This document shows positions 33,383-58,960 of a DNA stretch of 64,000 bases, piece after piece (the stretch's first letter is position 1; each line of letters begins with the position of its first letter). The DNA is from Antedon mediterranea (lineage: Eukaryota > Echinodermata > Crinoidea > Comatulida > Antedonidae). The stretch is from assembly GCF_964355755.1 (NCBI RefSeq), contig NC_092677.1, positions 10,872,601-10,936,600 on the forward strand, given 5' to 3'. The position numbers were made by a program, and so were the translations under genes. The notes beneath the pieces are model-generated. The model ran no database searches, was not told where the DNA came from, and worked only from the letters and a program-made list of their open reading frames with translations.

Positions 33383-36300
33383 ATGGCCACCTCTAGTAAT
33401 ACTTACTTTATAGTTATTGAAGACTTTGAAGTGGATAATGGTGTAAACAAAGGAAAGAAGATTGTTAAAGGAACTCTTTTGAAGTGTTTAAATGAAAATA
33501 TCAATAAACGTTCTTTGTATATGGTAACAGTGGATACAAATGGAATTTCTTTTGGTTTTCTGAGAAACCCGCATACAGTTAAAGAGATAAAATCAGAATA
33601 TGTGGATTATTTACTTGGGATACCTCTTATGAGAAGAATTGAGGCTTTTAAGGAAGGCTTCAGGCTCCTCAGAGCTGTGGAAGCAAAAGTTGGAGAAACT
33701 GTCAAAGTTCCTATCTTAATAGACCATAGAGAGTGTTTTGCAGACGCTATTATTCAATCCAAAGACAAAATTGATGATGAGAGAGGTCGTTTATTTGGTG
33801 TTGAACTACTTGTAAGTTTTAAACTTATATTAATAATAATAATTGGTTATCCGCACTTGGCGGATAACCCCTTGTTATTGTCACAATCTTTTTTTTTTTC
33901 TATATTCTTCTTTCTTGCCACGAATTTTGATTGCAGCATATCTCTATTTCTGGCCAAATTTCTGGCTCCAATAATGTAGTTTCATTTTTTACCCTTAATA
34001 AAGTTTCCTCGTGCGTGCAGTGCGTTAGTAGAGTAAACAAAATAACATTCGGGAAATGGTAGAGTCTAACGGAGATTTAGCTAAACAAACACGTGCATTT
34101 ATTGCGGACTATATAAACAGCAAGGCCGGCCGCCGGCTTCGGTGTTGTTGGGTAATAAATAATCGAGCCGGGATGGTATAAATTTTTCCCCCGACAGAAA
34201 CGTTTTTCCCTGTGCTTTGGCCTATATTATCTGCACGTTCAACAACGATACGAGTGTTCGTTTGCTAGAAATATTTTTAGCATATACGACGTACCGTCGT
34301 ACATAATTTTGTAGGCCTAGGCCTGCGCTAACTGCACTTTCGCACCTCTTGAGCATACCCAATCTAAAAACATTCACCCGCTGCACGGCGGTGACGGTGG
34401 GTGACTGTAAAAGTCTTAGGACACGATTTTCGCGTTGTACGGAAGCCACCAGCCAAGCGTAAAAAACAAAAATAACATAGCCTTCAGGGGATTTCTGAAA
34501 ACTGTAGAACTTATTAACTTGATAACTGTATGAATGCTGTACGATTAAAAACAATTTGAACAATTGTTTTGATCATATAAAATACAACAACAATTATTTT
34601 TTTTAATCATACAGTGATTTAGGCATGGCTCTCTCTCCCCAAATGCCTTACAAAAACGTTCAGGGAACAGTGTATAGACCTATTGACATAGATAAATTAA
34701 CTAAAATGTTTTTACCATTATATATCAACAATTTTTAATTTTGGCTAATGACCGATTCATTTGGCTAAATAAAAAAATTGGACTTGATTAGATAAACTGA
34801 TTTGACTAAAAAAAATATTTTGACTTTCGCCAAATGTTAGTGCTACCCCAGTGACGTCATCGTATGGCCACTCGAATATAAAATATAGGATTTTTTTCTC
34901 TTTCGTCATAGCTCATCACATTTAATGTAGCGCATCTCCACTTATCCGTATTCCATTTTTCCCTATATTTTGATATTGTTTAGGTCAATCAATTATCATT
35001 CACACCATTTACCATCAAAAGCATGAAACACTTCATCATTACAGTATATCAATATGATTGTTATAGGTTCTCAGATTGAAAAGTGATACTCATGATTAAA
35101 ACATTTTCTGGAAGCTGTAGAATTGTAGATACGAATTTTGCGCATCGGATGTTGGGAAGTCATCATGGCCAGTTGAATTATAAAAGTCGAATTTGCATAT
35201 TTTGCGTCATAAATAAGCGGGCATTCATATTCTACATATCCAAATTTCTTCAACACGTTAATATGTTGTTGCTCAGATAATTTTTTTCCAAAATTGCTAT
35301 CTACGTGTTTCATTTTGATGATGTCATCATGTTACAAATTGGATTAAAAGGTACCGAGATCGAGTCTCACCTTGGGAAATGAAAAAAGATTTTTTTTTAT
35401 TATCCGTATTGTGTGTTCAATGTTATTTCTTAGTGCATAGATTATAATTATTATATACATGATTTATAATGAAATCTAGATAAAAAGTAACTTATGTCTT
35501 TATTATGTAACAAATGTGGTTTATGACATTATACGAATTGTGATACCGGCTATTGTATTTACATTAGCAAGATCCTACCATATATTATTAAATAATTAAA
35601 TTCTGAGAAAATCAATCAATCAATATATCTTTAAAAAATCAATTACCGTACTGACGCGGGTATAAGCCCATACTCGGGTATAAGCCCACCCCCGACTTTT
35701 GACTAATTTTTATGAAAAATGAGGCACTCGGGTATAAGCCCACCCATTAATTCGAAGATCTAGTGTGTGTCATAATACATATTTTTGTATTTGGCGATGT
35801 CCATACACCGAATACACCTACCTACCTTTGATCATAACCAAGCTAGGCTAATATACGCTAGGCCATATGAGGCCTAACGGTCCTGTTTTGTTTACACTCC
35901 ATCGCGGTCGAAGATCGCTTCACACACGACGCTACATACAAGTCGCCAAAACGGAAAACCACTATTTGGTATCGGCTGCCATAAACAAGCTTATTAAATT
36001 TCTTTGGTACATTTCTATTTAACGAACATTGTATACTTGCTTTTCTGCTTGATAAATTCTTGTTCAATTGATGTTTAAAATAAGATATTCTACGATAAAT
36101 TACACGAACTGTAAGCTTAATTTTCCGACACTCTACACCTCGTGTATTTAGAGGCAACGTCGTACACGTGAGGGCGCTCGCATGGTGGAAATACACAGTG
36201 TGCATGTGCTGTTTTGACGATCTGCATTTTTGGATCCTCGGGTATAAGCCCACCCCTCAAACTTGACGTGATTTCATGTTCGAGGGGAGTGGGCTTATAC

Positions 36301-39300
36301 CCGCGTCAGTACGGTATCTTTATTTAAATCGATGCATAACCTATAGTTCGTCATAGTGACAAATTAAATCTAGTTTAACTAGAAAAAAATTTCTTAATGT
36401 AGTATTGTAACTTTTATTATTTTTGTTTTTTTTTGTCATTTTATTTTATTTCAGAAAAGTACATTTATAAGTATAGCAATATGCTCATTCTCCCACCACC
36501 ATTTTTTTAGTTTTTGTTTTTCAATACATCTTTTTTTTTCTATAGTCCGATAAAGGTTGTGGTTCAACTGATGGATGGTTTTGGGATAAATATTACTTCA
36601 AGTGTGAGAAGGATTGCGGGTTGTTTGTGCCTTTTGACAAATTGATATTTGATTCATCAAATTATGTAAAGAATATCATTGATACTTTCAAACCTGGAAC
36701 AAAGGTCACTTGCTTCACTAATGAGACAAGAGATAAATGGATAAAAGGTGTGGTGAAGAAACTGTTCCCACATCAACAACCAATTTTTGCTGCAGTTGAA
36801 TTTGTAAGTCTGCCTTTGCTTTGAGAATTCAAATCTCTTAAGCAATCTCTCAAATAGTTTTCTTAGATTTTTTTAGATGGAGATGGATAATTAGGGATAA
36901 AAGAATTACAGTAGTTTAGATTAAAAAACACTGTATCTTTGCCATTTAATTTTTTAATTACACATCACATGCCATGACATCTGATTGGTTTAGAAAGAAA
37001 GGCTTTTTTTTTTTAAATTTGATTGCTTTGTACTTTTTTTAAGGATGGTTATGTAAAAGAACTCAATTATACTGGACAGTTCGGCAGTCAGTTATTTTTC
37101 GAACCTATGGAGAACGTAGCACTTCTGGAAGTTAGTTATATGAAACCATCTTCTCTTTTTGAAGGTATGAATTTATAAAGTTACTATTGTTTCATGGTCC
37201 ACTGACTTAATCTATAGTTCCAGTGTTACAATGAGGTGGGAAAGTATTAGTTCATATGGGGTACAGCATATTACCAACATTGTAAAAATCATCATTATTG
37301 TGTGTGGGGATGTGTGCAACATACATATTTATTGTCACAATAAGCACATTAAATCAAGAATAGAAAAAATTGACGACTGAAGGACAAAATGAGATAATAA
37401 AGTCTTGATTTATTTTGCTTATTCGCCCCTTTGAAAGTTAGTCTCTAACTTATGGCTGAAACTTCTTATGGTGATTGTTTCAGTGTTCCTGCAGGTTTTA
37501 CTTAAATTGGTTTACTGAATACTAGAATAAAGGCAAATCAAGGTAAAATTCTGTAAAAAATGTAAACCATTGTTCAGCAATATAGTTTGTTTTTGGTATA
37601 AGCATATAATTAATATTGGAATGGAGTTGTGACTTGGTGGTTATAATGCTTGGCTACCAATCCTGGGTTCAAGTCCTGTCATATGTCAGGATTTTTCTAA
37701 TGACAAACTCCACTCCCAAAAACTTGTAATAAGACTTTGTTTATGTAGAGCATCTTATGTATATGTTAGTCTTGTAAATGGGATTACAACCTTAAAAAAG
37801 GATAGTGAATGAATTTAATTATTAATAATAAATTGTTAATTATTAATTGTACTTTCATCATATCCAGAACTTATTACACATGTGTATACAGCATTATATA
37901 ATAATAATTAATACACATATTAAAGGGACACAGGATCAATGTAGACACCCTTTATTTGGACCTAATGGTGACCTCAGTCTTACTGTATATCTATATATAA
38001 ATTTACGTAAGGGCAAAATTCGGTAAATCGCACGTTATTTCTAGAATGTTTCCTCGATGGTATATAAAGTTGGTTTGAATCTCGGTACTGATTTTAACCA
38101 CCTGATGTAACCCTGTTTACGAATTAAATTGAGTTAGATAATTAGTTATTGACAATTAAAACGAATTTAGGTTTAACAATTTGCCCCAAATAGGGGTGTT
38201 TTCTGATCGTGGTATAAACTGTCTAATGGATGTCCTCTTGAAAAATACCTGCACACAATAATACGAGGATGCTTCGCATTTTCCTATCTCCTCCTACGAT
38301 AATTTTTTTTTTAATAGCTGAAAACCGGTTGAACAGCTCGAGTACAGTATACAGTATATGTTGAAGACAGGCTGATTTTCTTTAAAAAAAATACTGATTT
38401 GATAGATTTAATATATGTTTATACAAATGTATTGACTTGCGATGAATGGAACATTCCAATCTCTCAGACTTCCAGTTTGTACAGGGCTGCAAATTAAGGG
38501 GTATTTGGTCGCATTTGCGACCTACTTTTTCTGTTTGCGACTAAAGAAACAGAATAGGTCGCGCATAGCGCGACAAGATCGTCTGCTTGTGCGAGTTGTT
38601 TCAAATTGAAGTCGGGTGTGTTTTCCCTATTTCAAACACTGTGTAATTTAATCTCTCTACTATACTACGGAAGGCTCAGGAGTTGCAACTAGTCACCGCC
38701 GCCGCAAAGGAGTCAGGTTCATTCAAGCGTACAAAGCCCCAAACATTTTACACTCGTTGTGATTGGAAGTTCGTCCATTTATTGCATGCTGCCTTACCCA
38801 ATCACACAAAAGAACACCAAACACACAGCACAGTGTGACGCGCGGACGACACAAACCTCGTGGAAAATCACCTCCGTTTTAAAGAAGGAATATAAAATCA
38901 ATTGTACCGCCGTACACAGAAGTTAGCCAGGGCGGGCGGCGGCGGTAGATACAAAGGATTGTCGCCGCGCAGTCATCAGCATTTTTTAGGCAGTATGTAA
39001 TTAATGATATATATAATAATATCTATTCATTATATAGATTAAACAGCAGTATTGTTTATCAGTAGATTTAATACTTTATTCCAGATTCTGATTATCGAAA
39101 ATTATATATCAGAGAAAATACCGCAACTTTTCCTACGAAGTAGCTTCGTAGATAAAACAGGCTACGTTGTTGGCTTTGTAGGTTACATTGTTTGGCTTCG
39201 TTAGTAACCTAAATAAACAACCTCACGATGTTCTTAGTAAGTAACAAGAAGGTGTGAAAATTATTATTTAATGTGTTATTTTTGACTGGCGGAGGAGGAC

Positions 39301-42300
39301 CAATTGTACATAATGTACTAAGAAATATATAATATAATAGTTTTTATTCGTAAATGTTTCATTCGTGTGTGTTTTTTTACTCTCAACGGCGAATATAAAT
39401 TTCCCACAATGTAAACGTAGAGACACGATCCAACACAATGAACTATGCCAACTAATAAAAATAATATAGCAAACGTCCAGTCGATCCAGAAAGATGCAAA
39501 CAAAAAAATCGTAAACAATTCATTCTAAATATAGTATCAGAACGTTCAATCGGTCGCTCAAAAAGCCTGCCGACAGAAGACCGTAATTAATACAGACCGA
39601 GTTTTTTGGTCACATGTCATGAAACGCGATACTCTGTTTTACCACCGCAAACCTCTCGCATGTTTTTTTTTACTCGGTACGAGGGGGGGATTGCTACAAA
39701 ACAGTGTACCTGAATTTTGCGTCACATGAAACGTAATACAGCTCTAAACTGTTCCCACGGTTCGCACGTTTTTCCCCTCCAAATTCTGGTCGGGTCTTTT
39801 GTTGTAATAATAATTTACCATGGATGTAATTTACAAAGGCCTATGTTAAATCTTAACATGGAATATATATTTATTTTGCATATATTTTGTTGGTGTCCTA
39901 GCCAAGGTGTTGTTGTTTTTATAATTCGCTAAACCAAGGTAGGATTGAATCATGTAGGCCGCCGAAACTCTCTCTGCGTGAGCTGATGGCCTCGGGCCCG
40001 ATTTCGTCTCGTCGGCGGATGTCCTGCCAAATTAGGACAACCGATGTGTAGGGCGGCTACAATTAAAAATTAACGTCTAGGATTTTAATTAGCCAACAAT
40101 ACATGTTTGTTTCCATTGTTTATGCTCCTAACTAAAGGCGATGACATTGGTGTTTACAAATTACTAACCCTACGAACCACCCTACGATCGACGTGTAGAT
40201 ATTATCATAAAATCGTAGGCATGGCAACGAACAATACTTTGGAAATTATAGGATATGTTTAGCGAACAATGACCTACGATCTATTTACGCGTAGGCTACG
40301 AAAGGTTACGCGTATATACAAAGCAGTAATTTGTTTCGGTACCGTAAAAATAATAGATCTTGCGTGAATAGGCCTATAAGTGGCGCATCAGGACCAGTGC
40401 CTAAATGTGCATAACCCAAATTAATTGAATTCTTCAGTGCTGAATTTTTATGTGCTCAGAAATCGATTGAAACAACCTATAATTACTCAAAAATCCCCCC
40501 CCCCCCCAAGCGGGGCCATTGGCGGCCCTCTGACCCCCAGCTTAAGGTTGTACTGTATTTCATTTGTGTACACCCCCACCCCCCCCCCCCCACTAAACTA
40601 AAAACGGATCTGCGCGGATGGGGTTTGAGGGAAGGGGGTTAGTTGTCGATGAAAAGGTGCTACTAAAATAATTGGTGGTGCTACCAAAAATTATTATGAG
40701 CCATCATACAAATTTGATAGTGCTACCAAGTAAAAAAGTTAATTTGCAGCCCTGTTGTAGGTAAATTTATGAGCCCTTGGTTTAACACAAGTAGGTATTT
40801 TTGGTCGCCATATGAAACGAAATTTTTTTACTGTGAATGTGGTTACTGTTAGATATATAAACACATATACAAAGAACATTTATTACTGTGACTGTGGGTA
40901 GGCTCTACTGCTGGATATATAAACACATAGGCCTATAAATATACATATACACATAAACACTTTATTACTGACAGTTGCTTCTCAACGTTTGTATTAATTA
41001 ATAATTATAAAAAATATAAACGTCGCAGTGGTGTATTGTTACATGTACTTTACTATTCCAATCGACTATGACAGGGATAGTTTTAACTCTAATGTTATAC
41101 AAAATACATATTGGGTTTGTTTAAATGAGTTAAAATAAAAAATTTGGACTCATTTTTAAAAATGTTGTTACAACCGCTAATGTAGAAAACGCCAGCTAAT
41201 GTCAATGTAGAACAGTCCACCGCTTACTGTATGTAGTAAAACCTCCAGCTTATGTAGAAACACCAACAGCTTATGTAGTAAATAAAAATCAACACCAGCT
41301 AATGTAGAAACAGTCAACAGCTCAATGATGAGAAGCGGTCCCTTAACAGAGACAGTGGTCATTCAATAGAGGTGGTCACTTACCAGATGTCATTGTGATG
41401 GGAGATGGTCGATTATGAGAAGCAGTCCCTTAATAGAGATGATTGTCCTTTAAAAGAGGTCGTCACTTACGAGAGGTGGGGTCGTTAAGAGAGGTGGTCC
41501 TTTAAAAGAGTCGTCACTGACGATTATGAGCGGTCCTTTAATAGAGAGAAAGAGGTCGTTGTCCCTTAAATGAGGTGGTCACTTACAAAAGGTGTGGTCC
41601 TTAAGAGAGGGGGTCGCTTAGGAGAGGTGGTCGCTTACGAGAGGTGGTCCCTTAACAGAAATGGTTGCTTACCATGTGTGGTCGTTTTAGAAAGTTGGTT
41701 GCTTATGAGAAGTGGAAAGACTGATAGCTAAGTAAAGATCGATGCATTTGCACATGAATGAGACATTTTTGTAAAATATATAACATTTTCTACATTAGCT
41801 GGCGATAGTAACTACATAAGCTGGGAGGCAATTTTCGTTACTACATAAGCTGTTGACTGTTTCTACTTTAGCTGGTGTTGATTTTTATTTACCACATAAG
41901 CTGTTGGTGTTTCTACATAAGCAGGAGGTTTTACTACATAAGCGGTGGGTTGTTCTACATTAACGGCTGTTTCGACATTAGCTGGCGTTTTCTACATTAA
42001 CGGTTGTAACAGATGTATTGTCCCCAAAAAACATGAAAAATGAAGATCAATTAAATCAGACTTTGAATATGTTATTTTGTAGTTTTAATAAAGTTAATCA
42101 CTTCCATAGAAACAAATACGAAAACAAATTATATTATATACAGTATATATACACTTATAAAATGACCAAACAAATGGTTAAATTCAACCAAAAAGCCATT
42201 GGCTGGCAGCCAATTTGACCATGTTTTGCTTTAAATTACATTTTTTCAGGTAAATATATAATTTTTAATTTGAAATCGCCAGTTTTTTTACGCTGAAATT

Positions 42301-45300
42301 ACTGTGTATTCGAGAACCATCTGTGGACATGACCTAGGTGGTACGCGAGCAAAGTGAGCGTACCATCTACTTGAAATAATTCATTATAAGGCTTCAACCC
42401 TTTATAAGCATAACACAGACATTAAGTATCCCGGACAATTGAAAAGAAAGACATGAAACAACTTAAAGAACTAGCCAATGAAAGATCAGACTGGAAGAAA
42501 CTGGTAAAAGAGATTTACGGAGCAGCCCAAGCGGAAATGTCAGCAGACTTTTCAGCGGAAAGGCAGTAATCAATCAAGGCTTCAACAGTAGTTATGATTA
42601 AAAGGCAAAGAGGGAATAGTTTCTCAATCATATTAATGCTTAAATCTAAAGTGCCTTATTTATATCTTTACACTATCTTTTTTAGGTGGTAAATCTAGCA
42701 AATCTTCTATAATCAACAATGTAGTTTCCTTTTTCACACCGGATAAATCAATGAACAGCAGGACTAACACATATGAAGAAGAAGTCATAAAGTCAAAAGC
42801 GGGTATTTTCTCCCTGTGATTCAAACAATAAATTGTTAAATTTACACATTATATCCTGTTTGCAGCAGCAATTAGTAGCAGCAGTAACAATTAGAATTTA
42901 TAGCAGCAATTAGTATTAGTAGCAGCAGCAATTAGTATTAGTACCAATTAGTATTAGTAGCAATTAGTATTAGTAGCAGTAGCAACAGTTAGTAGCAGCA
43001 GCAATTAGTATTTATAGCAGCAATTAGTATTAGCAGCAGCAATCAGTAGTAGTAATAGTTGCAGCAGCAACAGTTAGTTACTGCAGCAATTAGTATTAGT
43101 AGCAGCAATCAGTAGTAGCAGCAGCAACAACAGCAATTAATATTAGTAGCAGTAGCAACAGTTATTAACAGCAGAAATTAGTATTAGTAGCAGCAGCAAC
43201 AGTTAGTTGTAGCAGCAATTATTATTAATAGGAGCAGTAGCAATTAGTATTAGTAACAGCAGCAGCAATTAGTGGCAACAGCCATGTACTAGGGACAGCA
43301 GCAATTAGTAGCAACAGGGAAGTAGTAGTAGTAGTAGTAGTAGTAGCCAATTAGTATTAGTAGCAGCAGCAACAATTTATAGCAGCAGCAATTAGTAGCA
43401 ACAGCCAAGTACTAGGGACAGCAGCAATTAGTAGCAGCAGCAATTAGTAGCAACAGCCAATTAGTAGTAGTAGTAGTAGCCAATTAGTATTAGCAGCAGC
43501 AACAATTCATAGCAGAAACAATTAGTAGCAAAAGCAGCATTTAGTGCTCAGTAAAAATTAGTAGTAGAAGTATTCGTAGTAATTAGCACACGACGCACGG
43601 CAGTAGTTATCTAGGATACTGTAATTGCTTTTTAAAACATGACACTGATTCTTATTAACTGACATTTTTATCATCTAGTTGCAAATAATTCATCACCATA
43701 TTCTTCATGGGAGAAAGATTACTCAAAGGGTAGCAAAAAAAAGAAAACACGAAATGAGGAAGAAAGAGGTATTCAACATTTTTAATTGTAAAGTATAGAT
43801 AAGCCCATTCAAACTAGTAGCAATTTGAAATTGGCAGATTTTTTTATGTTTATGTTTTTTTATTAGTCACATGGGTAGAAGAAGACCTGATGTTGAGGAT
43901 TTCAAATACTATGTCACTAAGATGGTTAGAGTTTGGAAAAAAGCTTAAAATAGCCCAAAAGGAGCTTGATAAATTAGGTAGAAAGACTTATTCTTCTAAG
44001 GAGAAATCACGCCATATGCTTCAGGATTGGCAAGAAAATAATGATGAGACAGACAAGCTAGGAGTACTTGCACGAGTTTGTAAGGAGCTTGGTGAAGAAA
44101 ATTTGTGTAATAAAATACTCCAAGGTAGATATTTTTTGTATTGTTATATTTTAATGTGTTTACAATTTTATACTTGTGGATGGAAGTTAGATTTTAAATT
44201 AGCGTTGTGTCTTACCATCAAGAAATGAAATTGTACTTGAGAGTTTTGAGTTTGAATGTTACTGAGACCAAGTCTTCAATAGGGTTTGAAAGCTGAAATG
44301 CTAAATGCCTATTTTAGTCATGTAGTAGAGACTACTCCAATTTTTATCCATAAGCAAAATAGAAACATACAAATCAATGAAAATGATAATGTAATGGGGA
44401 AAAATTACTTTTGATATTTTTATTTATTTTTATTTTATTCAATCGAAACAAAGCTAGAACTGTTTACAGCACCTTGATTGATCCTAACATTGATCAAGGG
44501 CTTCTCTCATAAAAATGATAATGTAATGGGGAAAAATTACTTAACTTAAATATTTCTATTGATATTTTTATTTATATTTATTTTTATTTTATTCAATCGA
44601 AACAAAGCCAGGACTGTTTACAGCACCTTGATTGATCCTAACATTGATCAAGGGCTTCTCTCGTCCAGTGCCCACCTTGACCAGAGGAAAGGCATGGGCC
44701 AATACATCTGAGGCAGATAATAGATGCAGGTGCTGCCATAAGAGTCAGCAATGCTGATTTCAAATGCTTGTGGGCATGTGCAGTTTTTGTATTTGCTCTT
44801 TTCATCTTTTATAATTTGTTTTTATTCTACAATTATCAAAGGTTTGGATGATGATATTTTAAGATTTGTAGCACAAGAGGCTAAATACAGCTGGGAGAGT
44901 CTTGCTGAACAATTAAATGTGTCTAACATTGAACAGATTAGAAAAAGAAAAAGTGGTGATCAGGAAGCAATGTGCTTAGAGGTACTGATGATTTGGAGAA
45001 CAAACCAATCACATGCATCAGATAAAGTTACATTTCTTGCATCTTCTCTTGATCAAATTAAATTAGAATCTGTGTCAACATTTTTAATTCAAGGTAAAAT
45101 ATTTATTAATTATCACATCTTCTTATACATAGATGGTCCAGGGTTGGCATTTATCAATTTTTGCTTATATTTTTGCTTAAGCTGAAATAGTTTAGAAGTA
45201 CTTAAGCAAATAACTTATAAATTCTTTTATTACTACAGTACTTATTTATAACTTATTTATCAAACCGCCTCAGCAGAAAATTTGTCTTAGGTAAATTTTT

Positions 45301-48300
45301 TCTTAAGACAAAAAAATCTTTGATTATGCGTGCGCATTATCTTTTTTGTCTTAGTGAAGATGGCGCTATTACATTTTATCTCTGCATTTTCACAACAGAG
45401 GGCACATTCTGATTATAATGCTTTTATTACTTAAAATAGAGAAAGAGCACAAAAGTCAGAAATACATACCAAAATCAGTTGCTGTAAACTCAAACCAATA
45501 CATCTTATAAAGTAGCTTCTGGATATTAGTCACACCGCAATATTAGTTTTACTCATCTAATTCCTAGGCCATCTAACTGAAAATCGATATCATTATTAGC
45601 ATCCATGATACCATGAATACTGCAATAGAATAGCCTTTCTAGATGTTATCCTGTAGTGACAGCAACAACTTCTCTATAAACATGATTCCTTTATATTGTT
45701 TGAATTAAATGAAGGAAGTTAACATTTCACTCGCACATTACAGTTATAGCCGTAACCTAAAATAGGGTTTTTCTTTAATGAGATTTAATCTCTCTGTTTA
45801 AAAAGTATATATGGCATATTTGAAGGCAGCAGAAATATATTACTCAGTTTTATTTTTTAGGACTTGACAGTAACTTTCTAGTACAACTTTCAGTTGAACT
45901 TTCAAAATCATGGCAGGATATTGCTAGACAGTTAAAAATGACAGAAAGGGAAATCATAGAAATTAAGAAATCATCTTCTGATGAGTCCAAACAGGCTCAC
46001 CATGCATTCATGACCTGGAAAAAACAACAACCTTCAGAGACTGATCAACTTGGTACACTAGCAAAGGCTCTGAAAACTTGTGGTCATGAGGAAATGGCCA
46101 AACACTTGATTGGTGGTATGTATACATTTTGTATATTCATTATTCATTTCATTATTTTTATCTTTTTCAATATTTACATTTAACTATAAAAAAAATGAAT
46201 TGGGGAAACCAGGGTCAACCTAAGCGAACTAAATCAATGTGGCAGAGCCGATCTGAACCAATCCCAATTCAGTTTACACAATAAAACAAAACAATTAGAA
46301 GGGTAAAAATAAAATGGTACAATGAATCAAAACTTTAGTTTAGTAACGCAACTTTAGAAATTTCACACCAACTCAGCCCCACCATAGTTCATGAGTTCTT
46401 ATTCAGGTATATTTATTCATAAAATAGAAATCAATAGTACAACGGCAGCCAAAAGGCTGAAAAGTAGTATTTTACAATATTTGATAAAAAAAATATATAA
46501 ATATGTATAAATAGTAAAACTTAAAATTTGTCCACCGGTAAGTTAAATAGTGCCAGCCTATTCAATATTCATTGAAACATCATCATTAATGCGTCAGGCT
46601 AAGAAAGGGACTGGTGAAGATCTAAATCTCTCTGTACGATCAAACGGGATTTTGAGTCGAGGCTTACACGCAGACCTTAGGGTTGTAGTAGATCTTTAGA
46701 AGGTGTCTTGGCTTTCTTAAGTATAATCAAAGTGTACAAACGTCGACATGCTTTAGCAACGATATCATTCAGGCGATTTATAAAATATGACATATCTAGA
46801 TGGTCGGAAATGTCACACTCACGTTATTATAAATGTATTAACAATTGAAGATATTTTTAATATGAAAAATGAGGTACTGGCCTATATTTTGAGTATTTAT
46901 TTTTAAAGGCAACAGAAATAGGAATTTTAAATAGATGAAAAACGACACAAACAAACCCATGGACTAGGCCTAGACTCGGATGTTAACAGTTTCATTTTAA
47001 TCACATTTCCCATTTCTGAAATTCAAAAATAATACCATATCATCTTCGTTAATATTATTTATGATGATAATAATACAAAAATGAAAAAATCTGCCTTTTA
47101 TAATCTATATATAAATTTACATAAGGACAGATTCGGTAAATCGCGCTTTAATTCTGTTTACTCGATGGTATATAAAGTTAGTTCGTACTTTCGGTACTGA
47201 TTTTAACCTGATGTAACCCTGTTTAGTAATTAAATTGAGTTAGATAATTGTTATTGACAATTAAAACGATTTGCCCCAAATAGGGGTGTTTTCCTATCGT
47301 GGTATACACTGTATGGATGTCCATCTTGAAAAATACCTGCACACAATAATACGAGGATGCTTCGCCTTTACCTATCTCCTTCTACGATAATTGTTTTTAA
47401 TAGTTGAAAAACTGCTTGAACAGCTCGAGTACAGCATCATAATCTTGAAGACAGACCAATTTTCTTTAAAAAATTCTATTTTGATGGATTTAATATACGT
47501 TTATACAAATGTATTGATTTGCGATGAATGGAATATTTCAATCTCTCAGTCTCTCCCAGTGTAATTATTTGGTTTAACACAAGTAGGTAAATTTATTGGC
47601 CCTTGGTTGATAAACTTAAATCAGTTAGATATTAGTGTTGCAATACTTTGACAATAATATTGTAAATACGTATTAACCATTTTTGGTCGCCATTTGAATC
47701 GCACATAATAATCAAATAAACTTTATTACTGACAGTTGCTTCTCCACGTTTGTATTAATTAATAATTACAAAAACGTTGTAGAGGTGTAACGCTACATGT
47801 ACTTTACTATTTAAATCGACTATGACAGTGACAATTTTAACACAAGGTATTAAGTCGCAAATGCTGTACTGTATTAGTGGTATATTATTTATAGGCCTAT
47901 AAAACATGAACAAATATTTCGTTCCTGAGTGGATATAGAATATATTTAAAAATTGTGCCTCTTTGTACCCATCCTCTTCCCTATCCCTCAACCCTAATGT
48001 TGCATACAAAACACACAAAAAAAGGCTTATTTTGTGACAAGTTTCTCTTTCGGAAGTAATTCCCAGGGTGCTAATTTTAGTTGACTACATAAATCATTGT
48101 GTCTATTTATTCGTTTCTGTAAACGACAATGTATTATAGATCTGCGGTACGTACATTTGAAATCGCAATTTTTTACGCTGAAATTACTCTGTATTCGAGA
48201 ACCATCTGTGGCCACGACCTAGTTACAATAAAATTACTTTTACCTTTTTACTTCATATGTATGTTTTGTGATAGATCTGGAGGATGGGGATATTCACAAA

Positions 48301-51300
48301 ATCGCAATAAGGCTGAAAATTGATCCGACGATTATGTGTACAGCACTAAATTTCCAACTTTCACATAAGATATATTTTGACAAGAAATTTTCACGCGATT
48401 TTGCTAAAATAAAAGCAATGATTTCAAAATGGAGAGCACAGCAAAATCGTAGAGAAGACAAGAAACAAAAGTTAATAAGTTTATTGAGCAGTAATGGTTT
48501 TGATTCTGTTTTAAAAGAGGTTTTCTCAAGTAAGTAGGAAAGTTATGTTATTGAGGTAATTAATAGGAATTATTTAGAGAATTGAGTATGTACCCTTCTA
48601 TCATTAGGAAGATTACTCTCTAGATGTAACAAATATGTTAACAAATTTTAATGCAGTTTATTTCCAATAAGGTCAAAACAAATGTTAACTTCTAATAGAG
48701 ATCATCAGTGTTTCTTACTTTGCTTATCGTAAGTGATTTTATTATTTACAGAAGAATCCATCCAAGCAAGTCAAGTTTCAAGATCAGAGATAAGTAAGAA
48801 CTGTAAATTACAAGACATATTTCTTGCACTTTTTACATCACTGCACCCAGATTAACTTTTAATATAAAATAGGTTCAATTAAATACTGGTTTAATAATTA
48901 ACCAAAATTAAAATATAGACACAAGATCTTTTCTGAGTTTATTATTGTATTTCAGTTCATATATTTTAGTAATGAACTGGAATTAATTATTTTACAGTTG
49001 TATCTACAATCTATGGAAAAAACGTATCAAGACAAGATTACATACCACAGACAAGTATTTTTGTATTTATTAAATGACACATCTATAGCTATACCTTGTT
49101 TGCTTCCCTGTAGAACTTAACTCTTAGCATGAACTGTGTTCAACCCTTTTATTGTTTACTGGTTTAAAAACAATTAATTCATTATTGAATATCTTATTAT
49201 CAATTAATTTTAGTAATGAATATTGATTAATAAACAGGCCCCTATTGATCATAATGTAATGCGATATTTATATAGCGCTATTTCATGAAGATCAGAGCAC
49301 TGTCGACTTAGATGTTACACCTTTTTTAACAATATTCTTGTCCCCTAAGGGTCACATCCTGTCCATCGGCAGCCAACTACGGCGCCATTACGTCTGTCCA
49401 CGACAGTGTCTGTGTGAACTAGTACACCGGGTAACCCCCTACTTGTCTCGAAAGATGTACTAGGTTCTTTAAAGTGCACACGAGCAATATGCATACACTG
49501 GACCTACTGTACGGTTTATAGTCCTTTTCCGAGAAGACTTGTTCTACCACCAGAACCATGGACCGCGTGAGTCTCGAACCCTTGCCGATGTTATGGCTAT
49601 GGATTATGGTTCCACTGTCTTAACCACTCGGCCACTCACTCACTATTGATGGGTTTTGTCATATGTGTCAATATCATCTGTGGCCAGTTGTTGCAGATGT
49701 AGATGGTCATACAGTTCCTGTATTTTTGTCCTTTTCTGATAAGTAGCCACAATTATCTTCCATTTAATTGTGTCATTGTCTTTTGATTATGTCCCCATAT
49801 TTTTGTTTTGTGACTTCCAATTTTCTCCTACCTTATCATAGATATTCCTTGAACCAAACATAAATTTCGAATGAAAAAGAGTCTGTTTATTCTCTTGTTT
49901 TAGTTCCCTTATTTTTATCACTGGTTTAACAATTAACCAAAAATATTTATCAACAGCAGAATCAACACGCCATAGAAGCAACATATCTCATCCAAGAAAC
50001 AAACCAGAAACAGGTAAGATCTGTTTCTATCTTTTAGTACAAGAAATACTTTGTTTGTTCGGCATTCAATAATTGTAATCCTTCAAGCGCCTTTGAGCAT
50101 GTTTTTTTAATGAAAAGGGCTCTATATAAATGTGGTATATTGTATAGGCACATCCTTCAACTCGTTTAACATTACCATTCTTTTTTTTAGGACTTGATAG
50201 TGACTTTCTTGTACACCTTTCTATTAAACTTTCAAAGTCATGGCAGTATGTTGCTAGACAGCTTAAAATGGCAGAAAAAGAAATCAGAGAAATCAAGAAT
50301 TTATCTTCTGATGAGTCAAAACAGGCTCACCATGCATTCATGACCTGGGAAAAACGACAGCCTTCACATACTGATAAACTTGGTACACTAGCAAAAGCTC
50401 TGAAAGATTGTGGTCATGATGAAATGGCAAAACATTTGACTGGTGGTATGTACTGTGTACTAATCTCTAGAACAAGTCCGTCTTCCTATAACAATACTAA
50501 AAGAGGATGATTTTTATGTGTAGTACTCTGATAACATGTGTCTTGTGTATCATTTTGTATTTGCACCTCATGACAGTCAATATTGCATGGTAGTATGTAA
50601 TTATTGAGACATAACTTTTTCTTTTTACATGCTTAAGTTTTCTATGTTACATCATTTTTATAATCAGTTAAAATATTACCATTTAACTAGAGGGAAACAA
50701 ACTCAGCAAGTTCACCCTCTAAGTTGATATTATACAAATATTGCCTGCTTAGATGTAAAATATATAATTTGACATCCCTGAGGAAATGATATTTTGCTCA
50801 AAGAAATATAATTCTCGGGAGCATAATATCATTTCCCGAAGGGATGTCAAATCTTATATTTTACTGATATAAAAGGTGATACCTGTTATATTATATAGCC
50901 AACAACAAGTAGAATATCTACTGGGTCGGGTAGCTAGGCCTCCTTTATGTAATAAGCCTGCCTAGTTAGCATTGCATTCACCTTACCTTGCGAAGAAAAA
51001 TATACAGATAATTACCAATTAATGATTCCTTGGCAATAAAATATTCACTTAGCCCTAGGTATTTTGAATTAACAGAAGAATTTCCATCAATAACTACATT
51101 AATAATGATAATAATATTATCAGGTAGGCCTAGACTGAATAAATAATTCGTCTTCTTTGAGCTGAATGTTCAGTGTGCTGCGCGTACCAGGCTACTACTG
51201 TGAGTATTGACAGTCTTTCGTCGCATCTATAGAGGGCGAATAACAAAATGAGGGCGCTATGTATGCATAGTTTAAATAGTTGATTTATTTCTTCAAGCAA

Positions 51301-54300
51301 GTTATGTGGCGTGCCGTGTAAAACGTGGTCTTGTGATGATGTGGACTAATCTTCGCGAGTTCAAGTCCCAGTAGATGACTTTTGTTTATTTATCGCCAAA
51401 CGCGAGTGTTGCCACATGCAAATTACACAGTCAATATCAAACTCCTCGAGAATTTACTGGATTTTATATGTTTAATGACAGGGACACGATAATCACGCAA
51501 AAATTACTCGGTCAATATCATCGTATTTGAGGAAATATACGATTTATTTTATAAGGTTTTTGTAATATTTTTATAAAATAATTCTGAGTGGATTATTAAC
51601 CTTAAGCTATGTCTACACTATCAAAGTTCATGTGACAAACAAATATAATGTGCCCATATATGGACAGGATGATGGCTTTAATTTGTTTTCTATTTAGAAG
51701 ATGAAGAAGAGAATATCATGGAGATGGAGGTTGATGTGGATGACAGTTTTGTTTCAGATGAAATATTAGATATTATTGCAGAAGCATTAAAAGAATTTGA
51801 CGTAAATTCACTGCAAATATATTTCAAGATAAGGAGCTCATCTAGGCAATCTTATACAACAACCTTTGACAAATCAAATTTGTTGAAGACATTAAGAAAA
51901 ACTGAGACTGATTTTAAATCTAAGCTTACTGAAGCTCTGGATAGTGTTCACAGGACAGATTTGGCTGACCTATTAAAAGGTACTATACAATTATTAGCAT
52001 CATATCTACTGAAGAGACTCTGCTACACATTATCCTGGACCCACACAACAATTGTAATGGGTTGACCAGGCCTACTACAATACAAGAATGGACCCACATA
52101 ATTTTAATGAGTCAAAGGGCCCACTGCAATAGTAATGTAGATTGGACCCACACAAAAATTGTAATTGGCTGACCAGACGCATTTAATACAATATTATCAT
52201 TACATTGGTAAAATATTTGTGCCTCCCAGCTATGTATACTTTGAGGGGAATAGAGACTTCTTCCTAAAATGAGGAATTTTATTCAATTGATTTATTATTG
52301 ATGTTTACAGAAAAAACATCTCAAGAAGACAACATTACAAACCAGACAAACAAACCAGGAAGTGAAGAAATGGTTAATACTAGACCATTTTACCAGCATC
52401 AGTTTAGCATTGGAACAATGGTTGAAGTAACTGCTGTAGGCATGTCCATGTATGGTGTAATTAAATGGATTGGAGATATACCAGGAATGGAACACAAAGG
52501 TCGATTTGCTGGTGTGGAGCTGGTAAGTTTCTTTGTTAAAAATGTTTTGAATAACAAAAATTCTGTACCTACTGTACTTCCTGAGATTGTAAACTGAACT
52601 GTAAACTAAATTAGATTATTTAATTAATTAATTTTTAATCCACAAAAATGCAAATTTCTTTTCATATATTTTTGGTTTATCTTTGTGTGTTGAATAAACA
52701 AGAAAAACTGCTGTAAATCTTTATGCACTTAACTTTTCTATCATGTTGTACTTGGTAATTTCTCTAGGAGGAAGATTGCTCTGCTGCAACAGATGGCAGG
52801 TTTGGTGTTACACGTTACTTTAAAACTTTACCACACAGGGGTTTTTTTATACAAATATCAAAATGCAAGCCTGATGGTCGGTTTTCCGGTCCTATTGAGC
52901 ACACTGGAGGAGCACAAAGGCGAGGTAATTATCATATAAATTGTTCTACATCATTTTTATAGCCATTTTTGTATACTCTACAATTCAATGGTTATAAAAT
53001 ATCGTTCCTGCTTTCCCATATACTTTCTCAGTAAGTTTTATTGTAACTAAACAACGTTCCCTTCTGTTTTCTATTTTGATTATTATAGACAATGTTTTTG
53101 ATAGCCCATCGATAAAGGATGTCACGGTTCCACCCATGATGTCAAAGGTTCATCCACACGGAGCAATGGGTATCCAAGGAGACCAGAACTCGTGCTACCT
53201 TGATTCAACTATTTTTAGCATGTTTGCATTTGTTAGCGTTTTTGATGAGTTACTGCATCGCCCAAAGAATGCTAATGATATTGAAGGGTACAGTGAGGTA
53301 CAGAGAGTGCTTAGAGAGGACATAGTTTACCCATTAAGAAGGTACAAGTATACAGTACATACACCTTTATGCTTTTAACAAAAATAATATTACATTTATT
53401 ACATTATTATATTACATGTAGAAGATTACATTTTATCATAATAAACCATAATGTCAAAGTAACAGAAAGGTAAAATTCTATATAATGAGTGAGAAGTCAA
53501 ATTTATATATATTTATATGGTATAGTTTATTCCATTCTGTAAGGGGCGGGTTTCCCGCTGTTGAATGAGTATGAATAAAATAAAAATAAAATAAAATAGA
53601 AGTCAAATTCAACATTTTATTCTTTTTATTGTATCATCCTTAGATGATAATTGATGTTTCTTCTTATGGTTATTAGTTTTTATATATATTGTCATCCAAG
53701 ATTCATGGACCAATAAATTAGATTTTGTAATTTATATGTCCATGGTTGAACACTGAAGACAATCTGGTGAGGCCCTCTATTGCCCACGGTAGACACAATG
53801 CTGTGATCACCAGGAGATAGCCTACAGCTTTTGAATAGTCTAGTTCACTAAAGTTTTTTATTGCAATAATGTATACAGGACCCACGGATCAATGTTCCAT
53901 CCAAAGGACAATGAATCAACGACAGTAAAGCATCTAGCCTAAGGACACAAACCAAATGTCACAGACAGGTCTCAAACTCTGGCCTGCTCACATGCCAGTC
54001 CAATTACCATTTTTAATGAAAACTAATCCTTTGGAAGAGTAGGGTTTACCCCGGTGCACTGGTCCATTCAGCCCCTGTCATTGTGGACAGACAAACAGGC
54101 TTCTTCAGTGGCAGCATTCAACACAAAATGACCCTTAAGCGTGGTTCCCACTAGCGACGCAACGCAAGGACGCAACGCAAGTGAATTGACCAATCACAAG
54201 CGATGGCTTATTCGCTTTTGATTGCTAACTGTCTATAACTTCGCTTGTTATTGGTTAAAACGCTTGCGTTGCGTTTACGTCCTTGCGTTACGTTCTAGTG

Positions 54301-57300
54301 GGAACCAAGCTTTAGGGGCCGGGATAAGAAATTTACGTGTGTGTCATCATCTCAGTTAGTCTGCAGCCACAGGTTATTCCCCAACATTTACTTAAGAAAG
54401 CCTTCTTAAATTGTTTATTCTGTTGCTTCATTTTATAAAACATTCATTTTCTGAATTTTTTAGTTTGTTTATAGATATATTTGTATTATTTTTTGTTTAT
54501 AGGAATGGTTTAGTAAAATTTGAAAATATATATCAACTTCGAAAACTTCTGGATAAACATGGAAGTACTGTTGGTCTGACAGATCAGGAGAAAGACCCAG
54601 AGGAGTTTCTTACAACACTTTTACAAGAAGTATTGAAAAGTGATCCACTCTTTAAAATCAAGTATGTTATAAGAGACTTTGCTATTACTGTCTTATTAAT
54701 ATTTTTTTTTTTTGGCTTGTACCGTATTTATTATTTGTTTTTTTTAAATTTTCTTTTTCAATTGTATGCAAAAGGGAAAAAAGTAGTAAGCTTTCCCAAT
54801 TTATATTGTAAAAATTATATATTATGTATCTTCTTTGTCAAAATAAATGTGAAAATGAATGAATATAATTATGAATATTATATTAATATATTTATATTAT
54901 TTTTTGGTACAGGTTGTCATATCGGTCAAAGGTCAAAAAACCCATTTTCATTACATCAAATAGAAATGTATATACTTTGAACAATTTGACATAAAAATTA
55001 GCTCTCTGTGTACCTGAAATATGGGTCAAAGGTCAAAAACTGTATTTCCAGTTCATTTTTTGGTTAAAGTTTTCAATCGACTTGATAGGAAAGTCCTTGC
55101 TTTGAACAATTTGACTCCAAAAGCAAAAGTCTGTGGTCAGTAGTTTTAAAGATATCACATATTACTGCAAAACGGCTGCCATTTTGAATTATGCAAATTA
55201 TGTGAACCGCAAGGGTCAAATTTGTGGCGCCCGGCAGAAATTGAAATAGTATAGGACGGGCAACCTATACACAAAATTTAAACCAAAATATCCCAAACAG
55301 CCCCCACTAGAAGAACTGATGTAGTGTAATTAGATTAAAAATGTTTTAAAAAATGTTAGTAGAGACTTTGGTAACAAGCTTCAATCATGGTAGCCCTAGA
55401 AGGGTGAACCTTTGGTTGCACAATATTTCTAACAGTGTTTTGTGCAAGCTATTTTAAATTAATTTCTTTGTATCTCTTTTAGGGTTTATGGATCACCAGG
55501 CATGCAAGAAATGAACTTCTATCAGATGTTCATGGAGCGTGACACCACGTTGAAACAAATTCCAACAGTCCAGATGCTTTTGGAGCAGTCGTTTCTTGAT
55601 ACGGACATCAAGCTAGCTGAAATCCCATCATGCTTTGTGGTACAGATGCCTCGATTCGGAAAGGCTTATAGGTTGTACGAGAGAATTCTACCAACACTTG
55701 AGCTTGATATTACACAAATGCTGGACAACTGTAAGTTATTTTACACAATAAAAATAGTAATTTTCTAGTCTTTTAGTACTACTGTACATGTAGTTGTAAG
55801 TAAGTAAGTAATATTTATTGCTTTCCAAATACAGTACAAATATATAAAACAGTATAATGTAAATGAAATAAAAAGAGAAACATTAAATATAAAAATACAA
55901 GACTAGACAAGAAAATAAGCATGGAAAGCAGGGGATGGCCCTTTAAGCCCAGAGGCATTATCAACATTGACCATACCTATAAATGAGTCACCAATATTTT
56001 TTAATAGTAACAAATCTCATTCACATCATTTGAGAAGTATCCCCTTATCCTATATAAGTAAAAATGTCACGATGATTACTGATCAATTTATAGACTTATA
56101 TATTTTGGATTTGTTTATTAGTTCCCAGGCCATGTATTGTTTGTGGAAAACTAGCATCATTAGAATGCCGTGAATGCAGCAGTGCAAAACTAGGAGGTGA
56201 ACAGATAGCGGGTTACTGCGAGGATTGTTACATACTTGTAAGCAAAATGCCTTAGATTTTTTAAGAAACGGGGAGAACTCAGATGTTTGTTTTAATGTTT
56301 CATTAATTTATTATTTATTTTATTCTTCATATCCAGTTATACTGTACCTTATACCATTCATTCATTCATTGCAAATTGTACAAAAAAGTTTACATAAACT
56401 CCTTTGAAAGTTAAATCTTGCATTATGAATTATTTATTACACAAAAATCGTATGTATTACCTAATAATAATAATACTATATATTAATATGTTATACAGCA
56501 TCACAAAAAACCTATAAGAAAAGCACATGACGAGCCTAGAAATTTGAAAATTCAATAAATATCTTGTGTATATTTTATTATTAGAGTTACACCTACTTCT
56601 ATATAATACTATTAAAAAATGTTTTTACAGCGTCACAGAAAAGCTGAGAGAAGAACACATGAAAAGCCACGAAAATTGGAAGTTCCTGAGGACTTTCCAA
56701 ACGAACTTACAGAGGATGAGGAGTGTGATGCAATAAGCACTGAGAAAATGGAACTATTTGCTGTTGTGTGTATTGAAACAAGCCATTACGTGGCTTTTGT
56801 AAAATCTGGAGAAGAAAAACACTCAAAATGGTTGTTCTTTGACAGTATGGCTGACAGAATAGGTAAGATTTCATCTTTCTTTGTTGAAGTGGATAAGTTA
56901 TACCAAAGATGTAACACTTGATGCAAGTCTATAACCAGGATTTGTACAGGCGTAATACAATTTCAATCTTTCATCTAAATAAGTAATAATTGAAAGTATA
57001 GACATGTCTCTGTAGTCTTTTCTTCGTCAGTACATCTATAAATGGATGACTAACTGTAGTTAGGAGCAGGGATTCTAGTAGACAAACTTATGATTTTACG
57101 ATACTTCAGGAAATTACCTGTGAGGGCAGAGGGTATTACTAAATAGTAGCATAGTAGGCTAGATGAAATTTGACTTCTGCCGTGTTAGTATTGGCCAAAA
57201 ATTAGACCTATTTACTAGCATTTGTTTCAAGAAAGGAAAACCAGAGTTAGTTTGAACCTTATGAACCCATAGTACCAATCCTGCTGTTTGTAAGCTTAGA

Positions 57301-57583
57301 TGTTCAGCAGTAGAGACATATGCCAGCATGTATACCAAAAGTAATGACTCCCCCATGTACTATCAACTGTTGCCACATGGCAAGCAACATGTATTGTATT
57401 TTTTCAGGAGACCAGGATGGTTTTAACATCCCAAAGATAACAGAGCTTCCACACTTCCGAGATTGGATTGAACACCCAGAAAAACATGAACATTTAAGTG
57501 ACAAAGAGTTGGAAGAGCCATTAAGAAGACTATTATGTGATGCATATATGTGCTTCTACAGAAGTACTACAGTGCATCCATAG
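33383..57583 (+). CDS. CYLD: CYLD-type K63/M1 deubiquitinase with a Death-domain array
   Basis: Twenty-two coding exons: 33383-33811, 36546-36803, 37044-37164, 42686-42802, 43679-43768, 43867-44124, 44842-45093, 45861-46115, 48275-48529, 48752-48793, 48998-49054, 49957-50013, 50191-50445, 51698-51979, 52311-52522, 52768-52924, 53089-53341, 54503-54661, 55483-55730, 56122-56237, 56631-56862, 57408-57583. They close in frame at 4281 nt, 1426 aa. CAP-Gly 1 is about 100-185 (GCGSTDGWFWDKYYF), CAP-Gly 2 192-265, CAP-Gly 3 943-1020 (HKGRFAGVELEEDC), USP 1060-1426. Catalytic residues: Cys1068 in GIQGDQNSCYLDST, His1343 in ETSHYVAFVK, Asp1362 in WLFFDSMADR. The B-box-like zinc insert (CIVCGKLASLECREC) is at 1256-1290. 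Residues 340-910 are Death domains, absent from vertebrate CYLD. In vertebrates CYLD trims K63 and linear ubiquitin from NEMO, TRAF2 and RIPK1 and restrains NF-kB. Exon 48998-49054 has a weaker donor (GTATTT) and may be optional. Confidence 0.93.
33845..33869. repeat. Perfect 10-bp hairpin in CYLD intron 1
   Basis: GGTTATCCGC and GCGGATAACC are inverted across the loop ACTTG, 25 bp after the exon 1 donor. Probably the end of a small mobile element. Confidence 0.6.
35645..36316. mobile_element. TIR transposon, non-autonomous (TACCGTACTGACGCGGGTAT ends)
   Basis: Left end TACCGTACTGACGCGGGTAT-AAGCCCA, right end its inverse, a 27-bp match. The tract CTCGGGTATAAGCCCACCC recurs subterminally at least four times, inside both ends. 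It may use a TA target. Located in CYLD intron 1. Its interior has an open stretch without recognisable transposase motifs. Confidence 0.7.
37620..37815 (+). repeat. tRNA-derived SINE-like copy in CYLD intron 3
   Basis: A-box-like TGACTTGGTGGTTATAATGC and B-box GGGTTCAAGTCC are followed by a tail containing TAGAGCATCTTATGTATATG. It resembles the copy at 20990. Confidence 0.45.
38477..40759. mobile_element. hAT-like TIR transposon inserted in repeat C
   Basis: Element 38482-40754 (2273 bp) has perfect 16-bp inverted ends CAGGGCTGCAAATTAA and is flanked on both sides by TTGTA. CAGGG termini recall hAT elements, though most hAT duplications are 8 bp. No transposase is recognisable; the interior contains a GC-rich block near 38640-38960. 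Confidence 0.7.
41162..42012. mobile_element. Foldback element with long inverted ends
   Basis: Ends are TGTTACAACCGCTAATGTAG on the left and the inverse of its counterpart on the right (TTCTACATTAACGGTTGTAA). The left 160 bp and right 165 bp are inverted copies built from short units (AGCTTATGTAG, AGCTAATGTAGAAA). The middle, 41335-41715, is a loose run of GAGAGGTGGTC.CTTAA units. Confidence 0.75.
42451..42570 (+). pseudogene. Possible LINE ORF2 C-terminal remnant
   Basis: An open stretch reads MKQLKELANERSDWKKLV and on to AERQ stop. The LxxLAxERxDWxxLV pattern resembles the C-terminal end of non-LTR retrotransposon ORF2 proteins. It lies in CYLD intron 3, directly before exon 4. Confidence 0.4.
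42686..42802 (+). CDS. CYLD: CYLD exon 4: linker after CAP-Gly 2
   Basis: Phase 1-1 exon of 117 nt. The peptide is Ser/Asn/Lys-rich (GKSSKSSIINN, SFFTPDKSMNSRT, TYEEEV). No domain. Acceptor TTTTTTAG is strong; donor GTATTTTC is weak. Confidence 0.7.
42860..43590. repeat. AGC/AAT/AGT trinucleotide-rich repeat in CYLD intron 4
   Basis: About 700 bp built from AGCAGC, AATTAGT and AGTAGT motifs, with a recurrent AGCAGCAATTAGTATTAGT unit and a pure AGT run at 43322-43345. Confidence 0.9.
44395..44650. repeat. Tandem duplication of ~125 bp in CYLD intron 6
   Basis: AATGATAATGTAATGGGGAA...CCTTGATTGATCCTAACATT occurs twice in succession, with an extra TTAACTTAAATATTTCTATT in the second copy. Confidence 0.8.
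47103..48232 (+). repeat. Repeat family C copy 2 (uninterrupted)
   Basis: Collinear with the interrupted copy in intron 3 and located in CYLD intron 8. It ends about 40 bp before the DD4 exon. Either an interspersed repeat or a segmental duplication within the gene. Confidence 0.7.
49250..49650 (-). mobile_element. tRNA-derived SINE, full-length-looking
   Basis: On the minus strand it opens GTGGCCGAGTGGTTAAGACA (A box, Ser/Leu-tRNA type) and has B box GGGTTCGAGACTC, then about 300 bp of body ending near TATATAGCGCTATTT on the plus strand. A fragment of the same body (GTTCTACCACCAGAACC) is at 1608-1625 next to a NUP93 exon. It lies in CYLD intron 11, between exons 48998-49054 and 49957-50013. 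Confidence 0.6.
50755..50868. mobile_element. Palindromic MITE (family D)
   Basis: Arms TATAATTTGACATCCCTGAG and its inverse (CGAAGGGATGTCAAATCTTATA) enclose GATATTTTGCTC and GAGCATAATATC. A degraded relative is at 4290-4340. Confidence 0.7.
51605..51675. mobile_element. MITE family A fragment in CYLD intron
   Basis: Starts AAGCTATGTCTACACTATCA and stops after CCATATATGGACAGGATGATG, directly before the acceptor of exon 51698-51979. Confidence 0.5.
54136..54314. mobile_element. Palindromic MITE (family B), complete copy
   Basis: From AGCGTGGTTCCCACTAGCGA to TCTAGTGGGAACCAAGCTTT, matching the cluster at 24114-24690. Located in a CYLD intron. Confidence 0.8.
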
Positions 57584-58198: not shown

Positions 58199-58960
58199 TC
58201 CTCTGGATGAGGCCTCATCCAATTGTCACTACATGTACATTATGGTAAACGATATTTTTTATTTCAATCAATCAATATTAGATTTAATTCCATAAGTTCA
58301 ATTTCTATAATAATATTTTTTATTAAAATGTTTACAGAATTCTCTTGTTGTTTGTGGTTACTCCATGGTGGTTCATATGGAGTCACGGTTATAAAATGAA
58401 GTACATTATACTCAAATAAATGTTAAATTAAATATAAATAATGAAATACTCACCTTTACTTTATATTTACCTTTATTCTAAATTTATTTCTAAACACAAT
58501 ATTAAGTTTTAATAATCACTCTTTCCTAGGTAAGACTAGACTAACCTATGTTAAATTAAACATATAGGTATGATAAGGTATGATAATGAAATTGGGTTTT
58601 TTTGTGTTCAGATGGAAACTCTATAACCGTACATAAATATTTAAATAATATTTTCAGTACATTCTAAGTGAAATAAGAAGAAAATGTGCAAAAATGTATT
58701 ATTGAACACAACAAAACTATTATATTAAATGTTAGAAACAAATATCTAAAAAAAAATTGCTTACAAGATAAGGGTTAACATTTTTTTCACTGTAGGTAAA
58801 TTTGTTTTTTGTTTTTTATTAATTATGTATATAAAGTGAAAAATAGTTTTAATACAGGTAATTAGTTTTTTGGTTTGAAAATTAATTACTTTACGAATTG
58901 AAAATAAATCAAAATGAAAGATGTGTTTTATTGTGGATGTAGTAAGGTGTGACTGTAAAC
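58199..58960. other. Intergenic A/T-rich sequence
   Basis: No gene, RNA or repeat recognised. Confidence 0.4.

Follow-up and report, generated by a model that had tools for sequence, protein, structure and literature searches.

A CYLD gene of Antedon mediterranea with six Death-type exons in frame, and a second copy of four of them beside a RING/B-box exon

To our knowledge, the CYLD deubiquitinases of vertebrates and fly do not contain Death domains. CYLD is brought to TNFR1 complexes by SPATA2 bound to HOIP, and its CAP-Gly3 domain binds ubiquitin (PMC5031558, PMC8511506). The gene described here is located at positions 33383–57583 of a 64,000-nucleotide stretch of Antedon mediterranea DNA (C8:10872601–10936600, hereafter the window). 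It shares with human and zebrafish CYLD the USP domain with its Cys, His and Asp motifs, the B-box-like insert and, in the same order, domains CAP-Gly1 and CAP-Gly3. Unlike those proteins, it has six Death-type exons ahead of CAP-Gly3, and its CAP-Gly2 is not recognised. At the DNA level there is good support for this architecture, in which a single CYLD locus includes an array of Death exons in its frame. The favoured explanation, which we consider fairly probable, is that six Death-type domains in a row follow the N-terminal CAP-Gly exons and precede CAP-Gly3 in the spliced CYLD of this organism, which would use this array to dock to Death-domain assemblies.

The gene was rebuilt exon by exon, with boundaries picked by splice consensus, frame and homology. 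The model comprises 18 coding exons in a single frame, encodes 1344 amino acids and has GT-AG at 17 of 17 junctions (Table 1). Because the boundaries were picked to fit consensus, frame and homology, these junctions and the common frame do not form an independent test. A preliminary description, made from the letters of the window, had proposed a CYLD gene in one frame over the same region, which is borne out; it had counted 22 exons, and the further four were not found. The short exon U4 has poor codon usage (115 of 800 open intronic windows score as high) and is kept in the model because it is homologous to CYLD.

In a sequence search of the Protein Data Bank (PDB), residues 977–1342 match the CYLD USP structure 2vhf with an expectation value (E) of 4e-106, followed by 3wxg, 3wxe and 3wxf, which we take to be zebrafish CYLD. 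The Cys, His and Asp motifs at residues 986, 1261 and 1280, presumably the catalytic residues, are aligned with 2vhf, as are the Cys pairs at 1175, 1186 and 1203 of the B-box-like insert, for which zinc binding is predicted. CAP-Gly1 is recognised in the spliced protein by Pfam CAP_GLY (33.9 bits, cut-off 26.5) and by a match to 1whl, and CAP-Gly3 by Pfam (50 bits) and by matches to the CYLD CAP-Gly3 structures 1ixd, 7owd and 7owc; CAP-Gly3 and a USP domain with all three motifs are thus present as first proposed. In searches of the assembly (354 Mb, 18 contigs), the USP domain gives six matches, all of them exons of the CYLD locus, and the N-terminal 270 residues give three matches, none outside it. 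None of the 15 matches listed in a CAP-Gly family search of the genome is located at the CYLD locus, probably because introns split its CAP-Gly domains. By sequence, the gene at 33383–57583 is a CYLD deubiquitinase gene and the sole CYLD locus found in the genome.

The six Death-type exons (D1–D6) lie between exon E3 and CAP-Gly3, at 43867–51979, and every one of them is of phase 1-1, in agreement with the earlier claim of phase 1-1 Death exons between two halves of CYLD. Scored singly with Pfam Death (cut-off 22.6 bits), D1, D3 and D5 exceed the cut-off, D2 falls below it (scores in Table 1), and D4 and D6 give no match. In the genome-wide Death search, in which the best 150 of 181 candidates were scored, D1, D3 and D5 are among the 149 matches listed, and D2, D4 and D6 are not among them. 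A profile of 20 other Death domains of the genome, with the CYLD gene and the second copy described below left out, scores D1 to D6 at 36.7, 26.5, 41.4, 15.3, 42.2 and 12.1 bits. For each of the six, 0 of 500 shuffles reach the score (the best shuffle of D6 attains 9.1 bits), and two control segments of the CYLD protein score below 0 bits. D3 and D5 are 79% identical in amino acid sequence; beyond this pair, the Death exons are only 13–29% identical to D3 or D4.

D4 was further compared with the other Death exons by profile comparison, with a probability of 66%. The best of five AlphaFold models of D4, made with an alignment of the sibling Death exons, is a six-helix bundle with a predicted local distance difference test (pLDDT) score of 87.8, the other four scoring 56.6–70.6. 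In Foldseek the D4 model finds Death domains in all of its top 20 matches, although none reaches E ≤ 0.001. D6 gives a marginal match to the Pfam family bDLD3, a bacterial Death-like domain (27.7 bits in the full protein, cut-off 27.1, and 17.8 bits singly), carries by eye an RTD motif near the expected position of the last helix, and has coding-like codon usage. The preliminary count of five to six Death domains is fair, D6 being the weakest and least certain of the six and regarded here as putative.

A genome search with the Death array gives 10 matches, of which six are in the CYLD gene and four on contig C11, where counterparts of D1, D2, D3 and D4 stand in the order of CYLD. The C11 copy keeps 8 of 8 GT/AG splice sites, shows whole-codon length changes only and contains no stop or frameshift. 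Between the two loci, protein identity is 72, 84, 76 and 60% for D1–D4 and exon DNA is 79–89% identical, and the introns do not align past the exon edges. The ratio of nonsynonymous to synonymous substitution rates (dN/dS) is 0.41, 0.30 and 0.43 for D1, D2 and D3 (values without individual intervals) and 0.51 for the four exons together (95% bootstrap interval 0.36–0.71). These sequence comparisons show that the D1–D4 cassette is constrained as a whole between its two genomic copies, D4 appearing unconstrained or diverging. D3 and D5 have a dN/dS of 0.42 with a wide interval (0.18–0.95). Since their synonymous divergence (dS) is 0.27, slightly lower than the 0.36 of D3 between loci, D5 probably arose from D3 by a later duplication inside CYLD.

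Downstream of the cassette on C11, and in phase with it, come two linker exons of 63 bases each, similar to one another, and then a last exon encoding RING and B-box domains (zf-C3HC4 32.7 and zf-B_box 29.5 bits, each above its cut-off), 745 open residues in total. The RING/B-box exon is one of a large family with at least 116 related matches (113 of 332 candidates scored), and a copy of it with 80% identity lies directly upstream. Among phase-1 candidates with GT[AG]AG donors, no first exon was found in the 2.9 kb upstream, and because of this negative result with the pattern tried, the C11 gene remains a model.

Approximately 1.6 kb before D1 on C11, a decayed stretch matches the 3′ end of CYLD exon 2 together with its donor; part of it is recovered by blastn (37 bases, E 4.9e-5). 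With 20-base flanks the match scores 69, compared to a highest score of 48 among 60 shuffles over an 8.3 kb region and of 43.5 among 29 real genomic pieces. In each of two tests with 600 shuffles, of the exon and of the region, none reaches 69 (maxima 57 and 48); these tests used a 2.9 kb region that was picked after the match was known. Without flanks the match scores 63, a value reached at least once among 60 shuffles (maximum 63.5), which counts against a remnant. On C11, remnants of CYLD E1, E3, E4, D6 and CAP-Gly3 do not rise above shuffles, and a further stretch of this contig (L025) contains no open frame of 120 codons. The stretch before D1 is probably what is left of a decayed CYLD exon 2, and its position upstream of the cassette suggests that the cassette probably adjoined CYLD exon 2 at the time of copying. 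In the simplest reading, CYLD exon 2 and D1–D4 would have been copied to C11; there the exon 2 copy would have decayed, and D1–D4 would have been retained and become linked to the RING/B-box exon. The second cassette copy beside a RING/B-box exon and the probable exon-2 remnant are new with respect to the preliminary description.

Searched against the PDB, a profile of D1, D2, D3, D5 and three of their C11 counterparts gives 33 matches to solved sequences with E of 0.1 or less, RIPK1 (3.7e-8), PIDD and FADD coming first, followed by THO complex subunit 1 (THOC1), TNFR1 and ankyrins. PIDD and THOC1 are also weak PDB matches of the whole protein. The likeliest function of the array, as far as can be inferred, is direct recruitment to Death-domain assemblies. 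The array would be included in the CYLD mRNA and, at assemblies of receptors or adaptors, could bind other Death domains through several weak contacts that sum. It would thereby deliver CAP-Gly3 and the USP domain to K63- and Met1-linked ubiquitin, without a SPATA2–HOIP bridge. Because every Death exon is of phase 1-1, splicing could also yield CYLD forms in which some or all Death domains are missing and so tune recruitment. The earlier suggestion that the protein enters Death-domain assemblies directly is plausible in view of the RIPK1, PIDD and FADD matches; the binding step would still be an extrapolation from these matches, and the frame argument offered with the suggestion is weaker than claimed. 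More tentatively, and at less than even confidence, it is proposed that a ubiquitin writer and a ubiquitin eraser share one address tag: with the four-Death cassette copied from CYLD, along with exon 2 sequence, to a position before an in-frame RING/B-box exon on C11, the ligase and CYLD would be competitors at shared Death-domain assemblies, where the first would add chains and the second remove them.

Several observations weigh against the favoured explanation. The frame agreement over 24 kb had been taken to exclude two adjacent genes, which overstates the case: the end of E3 and the start of CG3a are both of phase 1, so that any subset of the 1-1 Death exons can be skipped in frame, and 1-1 exons between phase-1 boundaries fit either way. 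Frame agreement is cheap for such exons and was rejected as proof of one gene, as 1-1 exons keep the frame regardless and sampled Death exons are mostly of phase 1 (in 20 loci hand-picked from the genome-wide Death search, 11 of 14 scored acceptors and 7 of 9 scored donors). The sole coincidence required is a host intron of phase 1, with a chance of roughly one in three. The status of E4 as a coding exon is doubtful and unsupported, since 147 of 800 open intronic windows equal or exceed its codon usage and its donor is weak. The E2/E3 segment at the expected position of CAP-Gly2 gives no Pfam match and no PDB sequence match at E up to 10; CAP-Gly2 is not accepted as a firmly recognised domain, and of the N-terminal CAP-Gly pair initially described only CAP-Gly1 is recognised. 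D6 reaches a probability of 0.3% in profile comparison with the other Death exons. Structure prediction, suggested earlier as a check on the Death exons, gives a confident six-helix bundle for D4 in the best of five models and none for D6, whose single-sequence model has low confidence (pLDDT 60.5). Finally, the dN/dS of D4 between CYLD and C11 is 1.0.

The phase observations bear on a possible nested gene, in which the Death exons would make up a gene of their own within a CYLD intron and be absent from the CYLD mRNA. CYLD stays in frame when D1–D6 are skipped, and by the sampled loci the host-intron phase would match by chance about one time in three. The in-frame ATG of E4 could serve as a start, D6 could be a last exon, its frame being open for ~28 codons beyond its donor, and the C11 copy is a cassette within another gene context. 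Yet D6 ends just 331 bases before the CAP-Gly3 exon with matching phases, and the copying to C11 probably took CYLD exon 2 sequence along with the array, which speaks to neighbourhood and not to splicing; a nested gene is considered unlikely. The same six symmetrical exons, any subset of which keeps the frame, would also suit a regulated cassette, in which CYLD forms having and lacking parts of the Death array are both produced and recruitment is switched by splicing. The duplicates D3 and D5 would lend themselves to such alternative use, and this possibility, judged from the exon sequences, is rated as somewhat doubtful.

Instead of docking to partners, the array might drive CYLD oligomers or filaments that raise or restrain deubiquitinase activity. 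Death filaments of RIPK1 and TNFR1 (9kv7, 9v9e, 9v9c) are among the matched solved structures, and six linked copies could favour avidity, whereas the low identity of the Death exons outside the D3/D5 pair better fits several partners; self-assembly is considered about as improbable as a nested gene. That the Death exons are a functionless shuffled passenger in decay might be read from the dN/dS of D4, from the ratio over D1–D4 and from the wide interval of D3 against D5. Such decay is very hard to reconcile with four exons that in both copies lack stops and frameshifts, change length by whole codons only and keep all splice sites, with the lower ratios of D1–D3 (0.30–0.43, without individual intervals), and with introns that have diverged beyond alignment while the exons have not; it is highly improbable. 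Recruitment of CYLD by its Death array to Death-domain assemblies remains the explanation to which most weight is given.

Table 1. Features of the CYLD gene in the window and of the C11 gene model.
Feature	Description	Coordinates	Strand	Evidence
E1	Start codon, N-terminus, first half of CAP-Gly1	33383..33811	+	Pfam CAP_GLY residues 129–176; 1whl residues 134–178
E2	Remainder of CAP-Gly1, start of presumed degenerate CAP-Gly2	36546..36803	+	Gene model, Pfam; probable decayed copy of 3′ end on C11
E3	End of presumed CAP-Gly2, phase-1 end	37044..37164	+	Gene model; unrecognised by Pfam/PDB search
E4	Optional linker exon, doubtful	42686..42802	+	Gene model; codon usage not coding-like
D1	Death domain, phase 1-1	43867..44124	+	Pfam Death 36.7 bits; C11 copy 72% amino acid identity
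D2	Death domain, phase 1-1	44842..45093	+	Pfam 18.5 bits (below cut-off); genome Death profile 26.5 bits; C11 copy 84% amino acid identity
D3	Death domain, phase 1-1	45861..46115	+	Pfam 47.2 bits; C11 copy 76% amino acid identity
D4	Divergent Death domain, phase 1-1	48275..48529	+	Genome profile 15.3 bits, 0/500 shuffles; no Pfam Death match
D5	Death domain, probable D3 duplicate, phase 1-1	50191..50445	+	Pfam 45.9 bits; 79% amino acid identity to D3
D6	Putative divergent Death domain, phase 1-1	51698..51979	+	bDLD3 marginal; genome profile 12.1 bits; coding-like codon usage
CG3a	Linker, first half of CAP-Gly3	52311..52522	+	Gene model, Pfam, PDB matches
CG3b	Second half of CAP-Gly3	52768..52924	+	Gene model, Pfam, PDB matches
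U1	USP with Cys986 (NSCYLD)	53089..53341	+	2vhf match; genome USP search
U2	USP	54503..54661	+	2vhf match; genome USP search
U3	USP	55483..55730	+	2vhf match; genome USP search
U4	B-box-like zinc insert (CIVC, CREC, CEDC), predicted	56122..56237	+	2vhf match; genome USP search
U5	USP with His1261, Asp1280	56631..56862	+	2vhf match; genome USP search
U6	Final USP exon and stop codon	57408..57583	+	2vhf match; genome USP search
C11 gene model (L001)	Four CYLD-like Death domains, two linker exons, RING/B-box exon, one frame	C11:5417720-5413598	-	First exon not found

Directly downstream of CYLD, at 58764–59423 of the window, a low-complexity tandem repeat is open on both strands. Open frames at 27320–28344 resemble, by eye, a Penelope-like element with a GIY-YIG endonuclease, and the neighbouring genes at 1580–7030 (- strand) and 9653–10405 (+ strand) are taken to resemble Nup93 and a JmjC-type protein. 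Elsewhere in the genome, clusters of Death exons at C3:23.69 Mb (L023) and C5:13.01 Mb (L024) are found near open frames that look, by eye, like COR and winged-helix parts of Roco-type proteins. Triple-BIR open frames of near-equal score are present at 17.08 and 25.29 Mb of C3, 16.58 and 16.72 Mb of C4, and 13.67 and 14.17 Mb of C9, with Death matches nearby at 17.17 and 25.21 Mb (C3), 16.63 Mb (C4) and 14.04 Mb (C9). For five of the six triple-BIR sites, a Death match with the same or a similar score lies ~56–129 kb away, and the sites on the three contigs are possibly a large repeated element carrying both.

The literature searches gave no Death-domain CYLD among the matches listed, the two broadest searches being mostly off-topic, in line with the earlier statement that no CYLD with this architecture is known to have been described; Death-domain CYLD proteins may already sit unremarked in public databases. 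Nothing direct was found in the literature search for TRIM proteins with Death domains, and the accessible part of an article on bacterial Death-like domains does not mention CYLD (PMC8195603). A genome search for the SPATA2 PUB domain gave no match, a weak negative that says little because control genomes gave none either. A search of the assembly for COX1 also gave no match.

If correct, a CYLD with its own Death array would represent a second, direct route for placing a deubiquitinase on Death-domain assemblies, and an enzyme with such modules may plug directly into cell-death and immune signalling complexes. SPATA2–HOIP also brings CYLD to receptor signalling complexes such as TNFR1; there recruitment proceeds by an adaptor with a PUB domain, whereas here the docking module would be built in. 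The best solved matches of the array profile are the Death domains of RIPK1, PIDD, FADD, THOC1 and TNFR1, whose parent proteins are kinases, adaptors, an RNA-export factor or receptors, and not a deubiquitinase. Provided that the C11 gene is real, two enzymes with opposite roles in the ubiquitin system have come to carry one docking cassette through exon shuffling, which offers a natural test of whether address tags alone re-route ubiquitin editing. Like the RING/B-box ligases of the TRIM family, the C11 model ends in a RING and B-box exon, but here the RING/B-box comes after four Death domains that are common to CYLD.

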